A stretch of 33,335 bases of DNA, taken from positions 1 through 33,335 of the forward strand of contig JAIXUI010000144.1 of NCBI GenBank assembly GCA_027484125.1, written 5' to 3'. Below the pieces are notes generated by a model. The model was not told where the DNA came from. It did not search any database and saw only the letters and a program-made list of their open reading frames with translations. Below are positions 8,273 to 30,365 of the stretch, one piece after another. A program made the position numbers and the translations under genes. Position 1 is the stretch's first letter, and the number at the start of each line of letters is the position of its first letter. Source of the stretch: Bacteroidota bacterium (GTDB taxonomy: Bacteria > Bacteroidota > Bacteroidia > UBA7662 > JAIXUI01).

Positions 8273-8302
8273 TTGGGGATAAGTGGTCGGGCAGTAACTT
8301 CG
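8273..8302 (+). promoter_or_regulatory. Promoter of dnaE: TTG-N19-TAACTTCG
   Basis: A -33 TTG (8273-8275), exactly 19 nt of spacer and TAACTTCG (8295-8302), then 4 nt to the ATG. Matches the Bacteroidota promoter layout. Transcription starting 4-7 nt after the box would give a leaderless message. Confidence 0.6.
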
Positions 8303-8306
8303 CCCT

Positions 8307-11300
8307 ATGCCCTCGTTTTCCCATCTGCACGTTCATACCCAGTTTTCACTTCTTGATGGAGCCGCAGAAATAGGCGCACTGTTCAAAAAAGCAGCCGCCG
8401 ATAATATGCCGGGTCTCGCCATTACCGACCACGGCAATATGTTCGGAGCGTTCAAGTTCGTAGCCGAAGCTTGGAAGAAAACCAAAGTGGTGGGAAAAGA
8501 CGAACAGGGACGCGACATTGTGGAACCTATCACCAAACCAGTGGTGGGCTGCGAGTTTTACTTGGTAGATAACCGCCACAAAAGGCAGTTTACCAAAGAC
8601 GACCGCGATGTTCGATTTCATCAACTGCTGTTGGCTAAAAATGAAGTGGGCTACCAAAACCTGGTTAAACTTTGTTCCCTCGGTTTCATTGAAGGATTGT
8701 ATGGAAAATATCCCCGCATCGATAAGGAACTCATCCTGCAATATCACGAAGGATTAATTGCTACAACATGTTGCCTGGCGGCAGAAGTCCCTCGAACCAT
8801 TCTCCGTAAAGGTGAAGAAGAAGGCGAAAAGGTATTCAAATGGTGGCTCGATTTGTTCGGAGAAGATTACTTCATTGAGCTACAACGCCACGATATTCCC
8901 GAACAAAACCAAGTCAACGAAGTATTGCTCCGCTGGGCGAAAAAGTACCAGGTTCCGGTTATCGCTTCCAACGATAGCCATTATGTTGACCAAAAAGATG
9001 CCAACGCCCACGACATTTTGCTCTGTATCAATACAGGCGAAAAGCAATCGACCCCTACCAACAAAGATTTTAATGATGAAGACGGGCAAGCTCGTGGAAA
9101 ACGTTTCGCCTTTTATAACGACCAGTTTTATTTCAAAACCACCCAGGAAATGGGGCGACTTTTCGCTGATGTTCCTGAAGCTCTTGACAATACCAACCTA
9201 GTTTTAGACAAAATAAAACCTCTCAAGCTTAAGAAAGACATCCTGCTTCCGCATTATAAAGTGCCGGAAACTTTCAGCAGTCAGGATGCTTATTTAAGAG
9301 AAATCACCTACCAGGGGGCACGTGAGCGTTATGGAGAAATCACGCCTGATGTAGAAGAAAGGCTCAATTTTGAGCTCTTCACCATCGAATCGATGGGCTT
9401 TGCCGGCTACTTCCTCATCGTGGCCGACTTCATTAAAGCGGGCAGAGACTTAGGTGTTTTTGTGGGACCGGGCCGTGGTTCTGCTGCCGGGTCGGCCGTG
9501 GCTTACTGCATCGGCATCACCAACATCGACCCGATTAAATACAACTTGCTCTTCGAGCGTTTTCTCAACCCTGACCGTAAATCAATGCCCGATATTGATA
9601 CCGACTTCGACGATGAAGGCCGTCAAAAGGTAATTGATTATGTGGTAGAGAAATACGGCAAAAACCAAGTCGCCCAGATTGTAACCTATGGCACCATGGC
9701 CGCCAAAATGAGCATCAAAGACGTTGCTCGTGTGCTTGACTTGCCCCTTAGTGAAGCCAATGCCATTGCCAAGCTAGTTCCTGAGAAGCCTGGTATCGAA
9801 TTAAACAGAATCATTCTGGCGCCCTTGGAAGGTGAAAAAAGCCTGAAAGAAAAAGAAGGGCTCAACGGCGAGGACCTCGAAAATGTAAAAAAGCTACGAG
9901 GTCTTTATGAAGGGAATGAACCAGCATCAAAAGTGCTGAAAGAAGCGGTTATTCTGGAAGGTTCAGTAAGAGGAACAGGCATTCATGCCGCAGGCATCAT
10001 CATCGCACCGGAAGACTTAACCAACATCATCCCGGTATTTACCAGCAAGGAAACTGAATTGCTCATCACCCAGTTCGAAGGGAAAATCATCGAAGATGCC
10101 GGAGTAATTAAGATGGACTTTCTCGGTCTGAAAACCCTAACCATCATTCGCGATGCACTTCGCATGATAAAAGCGAATCATGGAATTACCATCGACATCG
10201 ACACCATCCCGCTGGACGATGAGCAAACCTTTCAACTGTACCAAAAAGGAGAAACCAACGGAACGTTTCAGTTCGAATCTGCGGGAATGCAAAAATACCT
10301 GAGGGAGCTGAAGCCGGACAAGTTTGACGACCTCATTGCCATGAACGCCCTGTACCGTCCTGGTCCCTTGGAGTACATCCCCAACTTCATCAACCGTAAG
10401 CACGGGCGGGAAGCCATCTCCTTCGACCTTCCCGAAATGGAAGAGTACCTCGCCGACACCTACGGAATCACCGTTTACCAGGAACAGGTGATGTTGCTTT
10501 CCCAAAAGCTAGCCGGATTCTCCAAAGGTGATGCAGACGTGCTCCGCAAAGCCATGGGAAAAAAAGACCGAGCAACCCTCGACAAAATGAAGTCGAAGTT
10601 CATGGAGGGGGCTGGAAGCAAAGGATTCGACGGGAAAACATTAGAGAAAATATGGACCGACTGGGAAGCCTTCGCTCAGTACGCCTTCAATAAATCGCAT
10701 TCAACCTGCTATGCTTTTGTAGCCTACCAAACTGCCTGGTTAAAAGCCCATTATCCGGCTGAATACATGGCTTCAGTACTTACGCACAACTTAAATCAGA
10801 TTGAAAAAATCACTTTTTTCATGGAAGAGTGCCGGCGTATGGGGCTGGTAGTGTTAGGACCAGACGTCAACGAATCGGATATTCAGTTTGCGGTGAACAA
10901 GAAAGGAGAAATTCGATTTGGGTTGGGTGCCATAAAAGGCGTTGGAGAAGCCGCTGTTGAAAGCTTGATTGCGGAACGAAATGCCAAAGGGGCCTTTAAA
11001 AGCATCTTCGACTTTACCAGCAGAATCAACCTTCGGGCAGCTAACCGAAAAACATTGGAAGCATTGGCACAAGCCGGAGGCTTCGACTGTTTCGAGCAAA
11101 ATCACCGTGCACAGTTGCTTTTACCCGGAAACGATGGGCAAACCGGTATCGAAAAGGCCATCAGACATGGACAAAACACCCAAAATGCGCAAGCTTCCGC
11201 TCAAGTATCCTTGTTTGGGTTCGTCACTGGAGACAATCAAAACGCACATGAACCGGAATTGCCCAAGGTAGAGCCCTTTTCCGACTTTGTAAGGCTACAA

Positions 11301-12367: not shown

Positions 12368-12375
12368 TATCTTCG
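12368..12375 (+). promoter_or_regulatory. -7 promoter box TATCTTCG for lgt
   Basis: TATCTTCG fits TAnnTTCG and lies 4 nt before the lgt ATG, the same gap as in dnaE. A weak TTT (12346-12348) stands 19 nt upstream. It follows directly on the trxA terminator, where a new promoter is needed. Confidence 0.45.
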
Positions 12376-12379
12376 ACTT

Positions 12380-13192
12380 ATGTTGGCAAATGCAGCAATT
12401 TTAGCATCCATTCGATGGGATGTAGATCCTGAAATTTTCAATCTTGGCCCTCTCGCACTCCGATGGTACGGAGTGCTATTCATGCTGGGCTTCTATATCG
12501 GTTACAAAATCCTGGAAAAAGTATATCAGAAAGAAGGCTTTAAACTGGAAGAACTTGATAAACTTGGACTTTATGTAGGGATTGGAACAGTAGTTGGCGC
12601 TCGCCTTGGTCATTGTTTATTCTACCAACCTGATTATTATCTCGCTCATCCAATAGAAATTCTAATGATTCATCAAGGTGGGCTTGCAAGTCATGGTGCT
12701 GCTATAGGCATCATCCTTGGAATGTTGGTGTACGCTAGAAAATTTAACAAAACCTTCCTTTGGACAGCCGACCGAGTAGTAATTACTGTTGCTCTTGGAG
12801 CTTGTTTTATCCGCCTAGGCAACCTCATGAACTCGGAAATCGTGGGCACCCCCTCCACCCTTCCCTGGGCTTTTGAGTTCATTCGTTTGGGTGAACAGCC
12901 GCCTGTCCCTCGGCACCCTGCCCAACTTTACGAATCCTTGTATTACCTCCTCACCTTCTTGGTGATTTATCGTTTGTACTGGAAGACTCCTTCTGCTCAA
13001 AGCCCTGGCAAAATATTTGGCATCTTCCTGCTTATGGTGTTTGGTTTCCGTTTTATCATCGAATTCTTTAAAGAAAATCAAGTGGATTTCGAACAAGGAC
13101 TTAGCTTAAACATGGGTCAAATGCTGAGTCTGCCGCTCATTTTGGCAGGATTGTTATTGTTATTCAGACCCAAGCCTAACGCGATGTTATAA
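12380..13192 (+). CDS. lgt: Prolipoprotein diacylglyceryl transferase
   Basis: Inner-membrane enzyme that moves diacylglyceryl from phosphatidylglycerol to the lipobox cysteine of prolipoproteins, the first step of lipoprotein maturation. The 270-aa protein has seven hydrophobic segments and the family signatures: HQGGLASHGA (H98, H105), the Lgt signature FIRLGNLMNSEIVG (R145, G147, N148, E153) and RHPAQLYES (H179, Q182, Y184, E185). Length is normal. Its stop is followed 2 nt later by the ATG of the alpha/beta hydrolase, so the two are co-transcribed; whether the hydrolase acts on lipids or lipoproteins is not shown. Confidence 0.95.
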   Translation: MLANAAILASIRWDVDPEIFNLGPLALRWYGVLFMLGFYIGYKILEKVYQKEGFKLEELDKLGLYVGIGTVVGARLGHCLFYQPDYYLAHPIEILMIHQGGLASHGAAIGIILGMLVYARKFNKTFLWTADRVVITVALGACFIRLGNLMNSEIVGTPSTLPWAFEFIRLGEQPPVPRHPAQLYESLYYLLTFLVIYRLYWKTPSAQSPGKIFGIFLLMVFGFRFIIEFFKENQVDFEQGLSLNMGQMLSLPLILAGLLLLFRPKPNAML

Positions 13193-28068: not shown

Positions 28069-28288
28069 TGCTTTACTTCAATTGGCTATTCAGCCCCTGT
28101 TAACTGGCTACATTTCGATGTTCAATAAATCTTCAACTTCAAATACGAACCTAGAGAGACCGACTTCGCACGTTGGGGAAAACAATAATCCTTCTATCCA
28201 TTAGGTATAATTTTACCGCTACAAAAAGCTATAAAAACAGCAGTGAGTAAACTGTTGCCCCTTTGGGGGAGTTAAAAATCGTATGTGA
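28069..28288. other. Non-coding stretch before the tandem array
   Basis: No gene is seen. Near its end (about 28247-28268) a diverged unit of the following array is visible, GTAAACT..CCCCTTTGGGG, which also makes a compact hairpin (CCCC-TTT-GGGG, flanked by AACT/AGTT, 28250-28273). No T run follows, so it is not a typical terminator for the acyl-CoA reductase gene. Confidence 0.5.
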
Positions 28289-28603
28289 GTAAGCTTTCAA
28301 CCTTTGAGGGTAAACTTTCAACCCTTGTGGGTAAACTTTCAACCTTTGAGGGTAAACTTTCAACCATTGTGGGTAAACTTTCAACCCTTGTGGGTAAGCT
28401 TTCAACCCTTGTGGGTAAGCTCTCAACCCTTGTGGGTAAGCTCTCAACCCTTGTGGGTAAGCTCTCAACCCTTGTGGGTAAGCTCTCAACCCCTGTGAAT
28501 AAGTTCTCAACCCTTGTGGGTAAGCTCTCAACCCCTGTGAGTAAGCTCTCAACCCTTGTGGGTAAGCTTTCAATCCCAGTGGGTAAACTTTTAACTCTTG
28601 TGA
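28289..28603. repeat. Tandem array of fifteen 21-bp units (minisatellite)
   Basis: Fifteen contiguous units of 21 bp with consensus GTAAGCTCTCAACCCTTGTGG and no spacers. Units at 28415, 28436 and 28457 are identical; the edges are more diverged, and a degenerate unit follows at 28604-28624. Most differences are single substitutions (AAA/AAG, CTT/CTC, CTT/TTT/ATT). Each typical unit carries ACCC-TTGT-GGGT, able to fold into a 4-bp hairpin; in the last unit both arms change together (ACTC-TTGT-GAGT). Because 21 is a multiple of 3, frames stay open on both strands and predict heptads such as KLSTLVG, LPTRVES and YPQGLRA. All such frames begin with GTG or TTG, so coding is doubtful. Confidence 0.95.
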
Positions 28604-28896
28604 GTAACGACAACTCTGCTGTGACTATATGCGATGCATGGGGAAGTAACTATTGAACTCAAAGCGAGGATCTTGAAGCCAAATTGCGTTTAGTTCTTAC
28701 TTCATGCCGACTGTGACCTAGGATATAAAAGACTTATAAACTTATAGCGAATACCAGATTATAAAATCACGTCAAGAATCTAGTAAGGAAAAAAAATGGG
28801 CATTCTAACTAAATAAATGATTCAGGCATTGTCTTCGTCAATTAGGCAAAATAGAAGAAACGCCCTATGAATTTGAAGAAAAAACTTAAAAAGATA
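28604..28896. other. A/T-rich non-coding stretch between tandem array and promoter
   Basis: Starts with a decayed array unit, then has short A/T-rich sequence with no frame worth calling. A 13-codon ATG frame (MNLKKKLKKIFGV, from 28867) overlaps the promoter and is not supported. Nothing else is seen. Confidence 0.5.
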
Positions 28897-28927
28897 TTTG
28901 GAGTTTAAGAACCGTTTATTAACTTCG
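28897..28927 (+). promoter_or_regulatory. Strong promoter: TTTG-N19-TAACTTCG
   Basis: TTTG (28897-28900), exactly 19 nt, TAACTTCG (28920-28927): the most complete match to the Bacteroidota consensus in the window, with the same box as dnaE. Four nt later comes the ATG of a 41-codon ORF, repeating the 4-nt gap of dnaE and lgt. No terminator is seen before the orphan gene at 29444, so it may drive that gene through a 0.5-kb leader. Confidence 0.65.
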
Positions 28928-28931
28928 AATC

Positions 28932-29057
28932 ATGAGAACAAGGAAAAATAACATGAAGCTCAGCAGTCCGGATTGCAGCAAAGCCGGCAGAGCTGATGTA
29001 TGCCTTGCTCATTGTATTCGAAAAACCATCAAACCGATTACCACCTTTCTCTCTTAA
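28932..29057 (+). CDS. Putative 41-aa cysteine-containing small protein or leader peptide
   Basis: An ATG 4 nt after the TAACTTCG box opens 41 codons ending in TAA (followed at once by TGA). The product begins MRTRKNNMKLSSPDCSKAGR, has three cysteines (15, 24, 28), is strongly basic and ends CIRKTIKPITTFLS. A second ATG at codon 8 is possible. No signal peptide, membrane helix or known family is recognised. The stop codon lies in the loop of one of two mutually exclusive hairpins, which suggests a leader peptide more than an independent protein. The call rests on promoter position and arrangement, not homology. Confidence 0.35.
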   Translation: MRTRKNNMKLSSPDCSKAGRADVCLAHCIRKTIKPITTFLS

Positions 29058-29088
29058 TGAGAGAGGACGTTAATCAACGCTCTCTCTC
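29047..29088 (+). promoter_or_regulatory. Mutually exclusive hairpins at the end of the 41-codon ORF (possible RNA switch)
   Basis: GAGAGAG (29059-29065) can pair upstream with TTCTCTC (29047-29053; loop TTAAT contains the ORF stop) or downstream with CTCTCTC (29082-29088; inner stem CGTT/AACG with loop AATC). Both pairings cannot exist together. Translation through the ORF would disturb the first. No known riboswitch family is recognised. Confidence 0.4.
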
Positions 29089-29092
29089 TAAT

Positions 29093-29184
29093 CCGGTTAA
29101 AGATAGGTTTACCTTACCGGTTAGGGTTATTTGGCTAGAGTTATTTCCGGCCAGTCCGGTGTTTATACCGGATTAGGGACGTCC
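29093..29184 (+). repeat. Cluster of CCGG-stem hairpins
   Basis: CCGGT (29093-29097) pairs with ACCGG (29116-29120). TCCGGT (29155-29160) pairs perfectly with ACCGGA (29167-29172) around GTTTAT. A GGACGTCC palindrome follows (29177-29184). Related CCGG words also occur inside the 41-codon ORF. The stretch is non-coding and structure-rich; role unknown. Confidence 0.5.
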
Positions 29185-29443
29185 TCTTCCGCAATTTTCA
29201 TGTTGTTAATATCAGATTCTACCGTTGCATCAATGTGCCAGGTAACGGCTGAATGGTGATGTAAGCAATATGCTCCTGTGATATAGTTCAGCGGATAAAG
29301 GGGCTTCATCACATATGTCAGGGAGAGCTGAAAAGCGTTGACTCAGCACTGACTCACCCAACCTTCATTAGCGCATCCTTATGCAGGCAACCTTTTTTCA
29401 GGCTTGATGCGAAGCCATTTCTTAATCTATTCCCTTTACTAAC
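29185..29443. other. Non-coding stretch before the orphan gene
   Basis: No gene, and no promoter box close to the orphan gene's ATG. A small hairpin GGCTT-GATGCG-AAGCC (29401-29416) lies 28 nt before that ATG, and GCTGA/TCAGC words flank 29327-29347. No T run follows either, so transcription from the promoter at 28897 could pass through. Confidence 0.4.
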
Positions 29444-30112
29444 ATGTCTAACCTTGTTTTCAGCCGTCAAATCGATCAATTCCACGCTCATTTAATGCTT
29501 GCCATTTCGTACGGCACAGCATGGTCACCCAAACAAAACCATCTCACCATTGCTCATCTTCAACAACGTTTAGATTATTGGAGAGCCATGCACTTAACCA
29601 TTTCAAAGCACAATACCGCCATTCAACAACTCAGAAACTCCAGAGTTTCTAAAATGAAAGAAGGCATCTTTAATGCAAAAAGAATTCGTTGGAACTTAGA
29701 GCTAGCACTCCATCAAGATGATCCGAGAAGAATGCAAATCATCACTCTTTTCAAAGAAATGCATAACAACAGGCCTGCAAAACCTGTAACTCCTATGGAA
29801 CCAAAGTCAAAACGTTCACTTTCAAAAAGGGCCTTCACCGATAGAATAGACCAATTTATCCGATTGAGTGCTATTCTTGATGGAACTCCTGAATACATTC
29901 CAGAAGAAGAAGAATTAAGTGCGGACAATTGGAAGCAGTTGGTGCTTGACTTGATAGAGTTAAGAGAAAGCTGCCAAAACGCAGATATTAAAGAGGAGCA
30001 ATACCGTATTCTTTTGGAAAATGGAAAAAAAGAGCTTTCCAAGTTCATCCACGAGATTAATCGTTATGCTATGATCAGGCAACTGAAACACAAAGTTCAA
30101 TTAGCCGGTTAA
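29444..30112 (+). CDS. Uncharacterised protein of two related helical halves
   Basis: A 222-aa soluble, helical, charged protein without signal peptide, membrane helix or known catalytic motif. It looks like an internal duplication: FSRQIDQF (6-13) and FTDRIDQF (131-138), each followed at similar distance by an aromatic-x-P segment (AWSPKQNHLTIAHLQQRLDYW, 26-46; EYIPEEEELSADNWKQLVLDL, 150-170) and a long helical tail. A basic, proline-rich linker (about 108-130, RPAKPVTPMEPKSKRS) joins them. The layout resembles, from memory, a large unnamed Bacteroidota family with YxPxxxxL motifs in both halves; this was not verified. It is the only gene in a 2.5-kb region, with a terminator 230 nt beyond. 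Confidence 0.75.
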   Translation: MSNLVFSRQIDQFHAHLMLAISYGTAWSPKQNHLTIAHLQQRLDYWRAMHLTISKHNTAIQQLRNSRVSKMKEGIFNAKRIRWNLELALHQDDPRRMQIITLFKEMHNNRPAKPVTPMEPKSKRSLSKRAFTDRIDQFIRLSAILDGTPEYIPEEEELSADNWKQLVLDLIELRESCQNADIKEEQYRILLENGKKELSKFIHEINRYAMIRQLKHKVQLAG

Positions 30113-30195: not shown

Positions 30196-30342
30196 CACGA
30201 AGTAATATGGAAAGGGTCAAACAGTTATGTGGTTGTTCAGCAATCCATTTTTAATTAATCAACTTACCTTAACTTTTAGCCATTGATTACTTAAGAGAAG
30301 GGCCATTATTTCTTTTCAACTTAACTTTTACTAGTACTCTCA

Positions 30343-30365
30343 AGCCGGATTCGTCCGGCTTTTTT
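30343..30365 (+). terminator. Rho-independent terminator with TTCG tetraloop
   Basis: AGCCGGA-TTCG-TCCGGCT, a 7-bp perfect stem with a stable TTCG loop, followed by a T run. It ends either the long 3' region of the orphan gene or a separate small RNA. Confidence 0.9.

Follow-up and report, generated by a model that had tools for sequence, protein, structure and literature searches.

Promoter, leader ORF, and downstream gene in the window

The window (the whole stretch of 33,335 nt that was analyzed) contains, on its plus strand, a short open reading frame (ORF) with a promoter immediately upstream and a larger gene downstream. The −33 element of the promoter, TTTG (28897 to 28900), is separated by 19 nt from the −7 box TAACTTCG (28920 to 28927), a TAnnTTCG variant, in accordance with the Bacteroidota sigma-A consensus (PMC7366714). 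The box is followed by AATC and by the ATG at 28932, where an ORF of 41 codons starts (28932 to 29057, including the TAA stop codon at 29055 to 29057). Its product contains Cys residues at positions 15, 24, and 28 and a conserved core of 25 residues, CSKAGRADVCLAHCIRKTIKPITTF, encoded by codons 15 to 39 (28974 to 29048). The assignment of this ORF as a leader draws on its sequence, on the comparison of its paralogues, and on the selection acting on it. The promoter, its distance of 4 nt to the ATG, and the 41-codon ORF with three Cys had been described in an initial annotation, and every element was found exactly where it had been placed.

The downstream gene (29444 to 30112) begins 386 nt after the leader and encodes a protein of 222 amino acids (aa), predicted to be all-helical and with no named function. 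The absence of a terminator before 29444, also noted in the initial annotation, held in our scan: the region contains one weak 5-bp terminator-like hairpin (29401 to 29416), which is at chance level, given the 2 terminator-like sites found in the 2.5-kb region versus 1.7 in shuffles. The probable intrinsic terminator of the unit was located by the same kind of scan at 30342 to 30361, where AAGCCGGATTCGTCCGGCTT is followed by TTTTATT. No second TAnnTT[TC]G box was found between the leader stop codon and the gene in the five copies of this genome, which is compatible with a single transcript but is not proof of it.

A leader family in nine genomes

A DNA search and then a peptide-profile search revealed exactly five paralogues, the leader of the window being one of them, in the genome to which the window belongs (here, the window genome), each of 41 codons. 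Together with 11 copies in eight other genomes, the family amounts to 16 copies in nine genomes, all of them from uncultured Bacteroidota as far as the record titles show. The profile built from the five window-genome peptides, run against 395 genomes of the class, retrieved G227 (4e-7) and G037 (9e-7), and two of the weaker matches were real. A degenerate DNA pattern for CIRNTIFSIT, searched in 84,980 species genomes, matched seven contigs, five of them new beyond G227 and G037. Profile-profile comparison between the window-genome group and the rest of the family gave an E value of 6e-14.

The family is rare and patchy. Four carriers were present in a class sample of 394 genomes, a fifth weak match being due to chance; no copies were found in 20 other genomes of the same order, a mixed profile gave no further carriers in a phylum-wide sample, and a first contig scan across genomes with the window-type peptide profile produced no matches. 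Two queries against viral contigs yielded only chance matches, with the KxGR part missing, and a plasmid search with one leader peptide found no relative. The weak genome matches L018, L019, L021 to L024, L026, G126, and L060 were rejected as chance, either lacking KxGR plus CIR or lying inside other frames. The peptide family had no match in Pfam or NCBIfam, the leader RNA had none in Rfam at the gathering score (only tRNAs near L025), and a literature search for the motif returned nothing relevant. Leader peptides are known as a kind, although few, to our knowledge, in Bacteroidota; this peptide family is previously undescribed in uncultured Bacteroidota. Copies are clustered in some cases, one metagenome-assembled genome (MAG) carrying three leaders within 1.7 kb and another carrying two. 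The three belong to L030 (3637 to 5369), and two of them, separated by ∼230 nt, precede one gene.

Predicted leaderless start of the leader mRNA

Bacteroidota ribosomes are not reliant on Shine-Dalgarno pairing. In 12 of the 16 leader copies, a TAnnTT[T/C]G box precedes the start codon by exactly 4 to 5 nt: in the window genome it reads TAnnTTCG, at a distance of 4 nt from the ATG (4 of 5 copies), and elsewhere it reads TAnnTTTG, at a distance of 5 nt (8 of 11 copies). The copy C82 can be counted as a thirteenth, with TATATTCA at the same place. Since the −7 box of Flavobacterium psychrophilum spans positions −12 to −5 relative to the transcription start (PMC9723704), a spacing of 4 to 5 nt would set the 5' end of the mRNA 0 to 1 nt before the start codon. 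The leader mRNA is thus predicted, from this exact distance, to be leaderless. Such mRNAs are uncommon, accounting for 5.5% in F. psychrophilum (PMC9723704).

The same 4-nt spacing was observed at two other sites of the window, both of them likely leaderless: TAACTTCG-CCCT-ATG (8295 to 8309) before the DNA polymerase III alpha gene (ATG at 8307) and TATCTTCG-ACTT-ATG (12368 to 12382) before an ORF at 12380. The TAnnTTCG-N4-ATG arrangement thus appears to be used elsewhere in the window genome.

Evidence for selection on the peptide

The leaders share the C-terminal motif K-x-G-R-x7-C-I-R-[NK]-T-I-x-x-I-T-x-[YF], in which K, G, and R, and also C, T, and I, are invariant or nearly invariant and a single Cys is kept in every copy. 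The C-terminal half of the five 41-codon peptides is invariant (KAGRxDVxLxHCIRKTIKPITTF). Most copies end in YP plus 0 to 3 residues, and those of the window genome end in LS, LV, or IV.

In the core, the five window-genome copies showed a pS of 0.64 and a pN of 0.06 (pN/pS, 0.096), and the eleven copies elsewhere showed a pN/pS of 0.286 with a pS of 0.79, synonymous sites being near saturation in both comparisons. By region, codons 1 to 13 of the window-genome copies gave a pN/pS of 0.75, versus 0.154 for codons 14 to 41. The frame of the ORF contains no stops. The other forward frames rendered values above 1.2 and contain stops, and the value of 0.5 obtained for one antisense frame, which also carries stops, is a phase effect. 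Despite the N-terminal drift, the length of the leader is fixed, at 41 codons here and at 35 to 36 elsewhere, as counted where the box assigns the start. These substitution patterns indicate that selection acts at the peptide level. Conserved C-terminal residues are combined with a free N terminus, as in nascent-chain arrest, and the short peptide-conserved ORF lies upstream of a same-strand gene, as in leader peptides in general. The RAPP/RAGP (RQH) motif, R/Q/H-A/G/D-P/G/S-P/G near the C terminus, was absent from the leader alignments.

Strong selection on the peptide and a promoter of its own would also suit an independent small gene, whose product would act in trans as a regulator, a signal, or a small protein; the hairpins after the ORF would then be a 3' untranslated region or a terminator, and the neighboring gene would not be controlled. 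We consider this unlikely. The conservation is confined to the C-terminal part of the peptide, and the peptides as read contain no hydrophobic stretch and no secretion or toxin signature.

Alternative RNA pairings at the leader stop codon

Segments 1, 2, 3, 4, and D were named along the RNA (ALTERNATIVES) of the window genome, all of them on the plus strand. Segment 1 (CCTTTCTC, 29044 to 29051) forms the end of the ORF, and segment 2 (GAGAGAGGACG, 29059 to 29069), directly after the stop codon, is the arm common to three alternative pairings. Segment 3 (ACG-C-TCTCTCTC...TAATCCGG, 29077 to 29096) pairs through its 5' part with segment 2 and through its 3' part (29086 to 29096) with segment 4 (CCGGTTAGGG, 29117 to 29126), after which TTATTT is found and no proper U-tract. 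In segment D (AGGGACGTCCTC, 29175 to 29186), CGTCCTC is complementary to 29063 to 29069 and AGGGA to 29085 to 29089.

A GAGAGAG stretch had been proposed to pair either upstream or downstream, and both folds were recovered. In the upstream hairpin, GAGAGAGG (29059 to 29066) pairs with segment 1, so that the loop contains the stop codon (−10.3 kcal/mol), and in the downstream hairpin (29059 to 29088) it pairs with the CTCTCTC run (−15.2 kcal/mol). In folding, the 183-nt leader (28928 to 29110) outperformed all but 2 of 200 dinucleotide shuffles (z, −2.6). This result, and above all the recurrence of the ORF and the pairings in four further copies, indicates that the arrangement exceeds chance.

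Pairing 1:2 is complete (8/8 pairs) in three of the five copies and partial (6/8) in the other two. Pairing 2:3 occurs in every copy and contains six covarying pairs, the covariation in this analysis being that of five paralogues only, hence limited, and the folds being in silico; pairing 3:4 or a comparable hairpin occurs in four. A long-range pairing, 2:D, connects 29063 to 29069 with 29180 to 29186 and retains 7/7 pairs in 5/5 copies, with segment D ∼110 to 140 nt downstream; two of its pairs are compensated, both from the single copy C82, and the helix adjoining it contains three covarying pairs. The pairings 1:2, 2:3, and 2:D are mutually exclusive. Folding from the stop codon to D favors 2:D, and the whole stretch folds with −40 to −60 kcal/mol.

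The proposal of only two competing hairpins had missed a third pairing, the long-range one. The alternatives 1:2 and 2:3 on which it was based do exist, but they are not the best conserved set, since it is 2:3 and 2:D that are kept in all five copies. The conservation that the initial annotation had suggested looking for was found in the other copies, with the ORF intact and under protein-level selection and the pairings maintained through compensatory changes.

Segments 1, 2, 3, and 4 follow one another in a trp-like order, CIRKTIKPITTF is rich in Ile and Thr, and the window copy contains three Cys, all of which would fit a classical amino-acid attenuator, where a delay due to scarce Ile/Thr or Cys aminoacyl-tRNA would select among 1:2, 2:3, and 3:4 and so decide on the terminator. 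This explanation is very improbable, however, given that K, G, and R are also (nearly) invariant, that one Cys only is present in all copies, that segment 4 lacks a U-tract, and that the downstream genes are not of that kind (none of those seen belongs to amino-acid biosynthesis). Leader-peptide attenuation of the amino-acid transcription type is unsupported because no transcription terminator is visible; none of the alternative folds corresponds to an intrinsic terminator, the feature expected of a transcription attenuator. Intrinsic terminators were also considered as a common output of the family and found unconvincing, the hairpins being weak and pairing 3:4 being followed by no U-tract.

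Predicted pairing of the stop region with the next start region in other genomes

Outside the window genome, the gap between the leader and the next gene is mostly 45 to 180 nt and contains one or two hairpins, and the leader stop region tends to be complementary to the region where the next gene starts. For example, GGTTAAATTTTTT faces AAAAAGTTTAACC-ATG in L031, CATAACTGAG faces CTCAGTTATG in L020, GGTTGATTA faces TAATCAACC in L016, and TTGTTTTAAG faces CTTAAAACAA in L034. Over nine loci outside the window genome, the Fisher combined p value of this pairing was 9e-5, with four of the nine below 0.05 singly. When partners were swapped between loci, only 1 of 20,000 permutations matched the loci's own pairing. 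A weaker control, in which the target was slid 30 to 120 nt into the gene, gave sums of −80 to −62 kcal/mol versus −89 kcal/mol. In the window genome, no pairing of segment 2 or of any other kind that would hide the start of the 222-aa gene was found. Elsewhere, then, the same peptide precedes other genes with an RNA layout that differs from that of the window genome, opposing the stop region to the next start region.

The comparison among genomes also bears on whether the ORF might be incidental to a structured noncoding RNA or a repeat family. The structure does reach far past the ORF, it shows conservation within the window genome, and several dispersed copies exist. This is a disfavored reading with hardly any probability, as pN/pS is far below 1 in the ORF frame only, that frame is devoid of stops, conservation between families extends to the peptide but not to the RNA beyond the ORF, and no Rfam match was obtained.

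Genes downstream of the leaders

In every copy where it is visible, the gene downstream of the leader lies on the same strand. In the window genome, the leader-to-gene gap ranges from 381 to 404 nt, and four of the five copies precede, by 386 to 404 nt, a paralogue of the 222-aa gene (20 to 43% identity), the fifth, C73, preceding an unrelated 259-aa protein. The recurrence of the paralogue in four copies supports the suggestion made at the outset that the unit is linked to the orphan gene at 29444.

The 222-aa family is spread in the class, with members in 32 of 375 sampled genomes (31 of the 374 others, as distant relatives) and up to five copies in each. No leader of this kind was found before nine other family members examined. 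The protein had no match in Pfam, NCBIfam, PHROGs, or PADLOC and no relative in phages. Its predicted model, a confident one, is all-helical (pLDDT, 86.6), and no significant structural match to it was obtained, the best being the ligand-binding domain of McpS (E value, 0.03; TM score, ∼0.5). Members of the family often start with ETGHAKNVANF, and the arrangement of their predicted helices and repeated motifs points to a protein of two similar halves.

In the other genomes, the leader is followed by an FA_hydroxylase (PF04116) in four of them, by an Mpo1-like 2-hydroxy-fatty-acid dioxygenase (PF06127) in one, and by a homologous pair of 211- to 214-aa proteins (47% identity) in two; the remaining leader-linked genes have no assigned family. 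Two leader-linked FA_hydroxylases were the top matches of a third (52% and 45% identity) among 364 genomes, and no leader was found at the other FA_hydroxylases examined. The leader family being rare and patchy, it is absent from most relatives of the downstream genes. An envelope and hydroxy-lipid theme among the downstream genes is suggestive only. Homologous leader-linked proteins encoded in L030 (4025 to 4666) and L025 (768 to 1400, minus strand) contain a GGHxGIEY motif and then RCxAAAYD, which may resemble permuted NlpC/P60 (YiiX/LRAT-like) thiol hydrolases.

For a peptide acting in trans, one could cite the several copies per genome with different neighbors, the long gap (386 nt) before the next gene in the window genome, and the terminator-like hairpin after the stop codon in some copies, such as L025. 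However, the leader is always upstream of a same-strand gene, mostly close to it, the downstream families recur, and the stop region tends to pair with the start region that follows.

Proposed mechanism and comparison with known systems

Taken together, these data make it reasonably probable that the locus exerts control in cis by means of a leader peptide belonging to a new family, which would probably operate through nascent-chain pausing of the ribosome near the stop codon. Transcription would begin at the start codon or 1 nt before it, as the promoter spacing suggests, with the ribosome loading on the 5' end of the mRNA. The ribosome would then make a short peptide with a variable N terminus and the nascent-chain motif KxGRx7CIRxTIxxIT, the part under peptide-level selection, and the nascent chain would cause a pause or a slow release near or at the stop codon, depending on a signal. 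If it were held while its A site contained the stop codon, the ribosome would mask segment 2, so that neither 2:3 nor 2:D could form. Since segment 2 is, by folding and covariation, the shared arm of exclusive pairings, we infer that the residence of the ribosome decides which fold forms. The chosen fold would in turn set the expression of the next gene, presumably cotranscribed with the leader. Outside the window genome, the arm blocked by the ribosome would otherwise sequester the next start region, so that pausing would turn the gene on, i.e., translation attenuation. In the window genome, the arm would choose among the local hairpin 2:3, the distal stem 2:D, and 1:2, all upstream of the 222-aa gene, and the candidate routes to that gene are translation, Rho, or RNA stability.

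Leader-peptide-like small ORFs upstream of genes have been mentioned in transcriptome studies of Flavobacterium and Bacteroides (PMC9723704, PMC7366714), and, for other peptides, stalling on Bacteroidota leader ORFs is known to occur when the stop codon occupies the A site (PMC10987492). Those ORFs resemble the leaders studied here in that their C-terminal end, close to the stop codon, is conserved, but they lie upstream of secA/secDF and terminate in N-S-P or N-A-P, whereas the window family carries CIRxTIxxIT before unrelated genes, and stalling would be its presumed mode of action. With ErmCL/ErmBL, the cat leaders, and CutF of Rhodobacter (PMC9973294), it has in common a short ORF placed upstream, the translation of which would open a structure hiding the next initiation site; no sequence relation was seen, the window family is, as predicted, leaderless, and the signal sequence and Cu motif of CutF are absent. 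TnaC of the tryptophanase operon is likewise a short leader with conserved C-terminal residues, and the ribosome may be held at its stop codon; unlike TnaC, the window family lacks Trp, precedes unrelated genes, and conserves alternative RNA folds. As in the trp/thr-type transcription attenuators, ordered pairings 1:2, 2:3, and 3:4 follow a short ORF, but there is neither a run of a single regulatory amino acid nor a U-tract after 3:4, the identity of the peptide is conserved, and 2:D is additional. The family is therefore set apart from described systems by its leaderless fixed geometry, its several copies before different genes, and its switch at the stop codon.

More tentatively, the leaders might constitute a phylum-specific pausing peptide module, always leaderless and placed before unrelated genes, several of them related to hydroxylated fatty acids or the envelope, with an RNA switch adapted to each; this broader reading is possible but rather doubtful. 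A module always devoid of a 5' leader would have a fixed distance between the mRNA end and the pause site. If this were so, one cell would run several genes from one nascent-peptide sensor, as a small regulon under a single nascent-chain signal, with up to five copies per genome and an RNA switch at the stop codon. The core provides a concrete 25-residue sequence for pausing tests and a handle on the FA_hydroxylase, Mpo1-like, and 222-aa family genes.

Tandem repeats upstream of the leaders

Just upstream of the unit in the window, positions 28284 to 28607 consist of 15 tandem 21-bp repeats (TGTGGGTAAGCTCTCAACCCT). Arrays also precede C149 (63-bp, 10 copies) and C82 (74-bp), and no array was present upstream of the remaining two copies of the window genome in the DNA examined.
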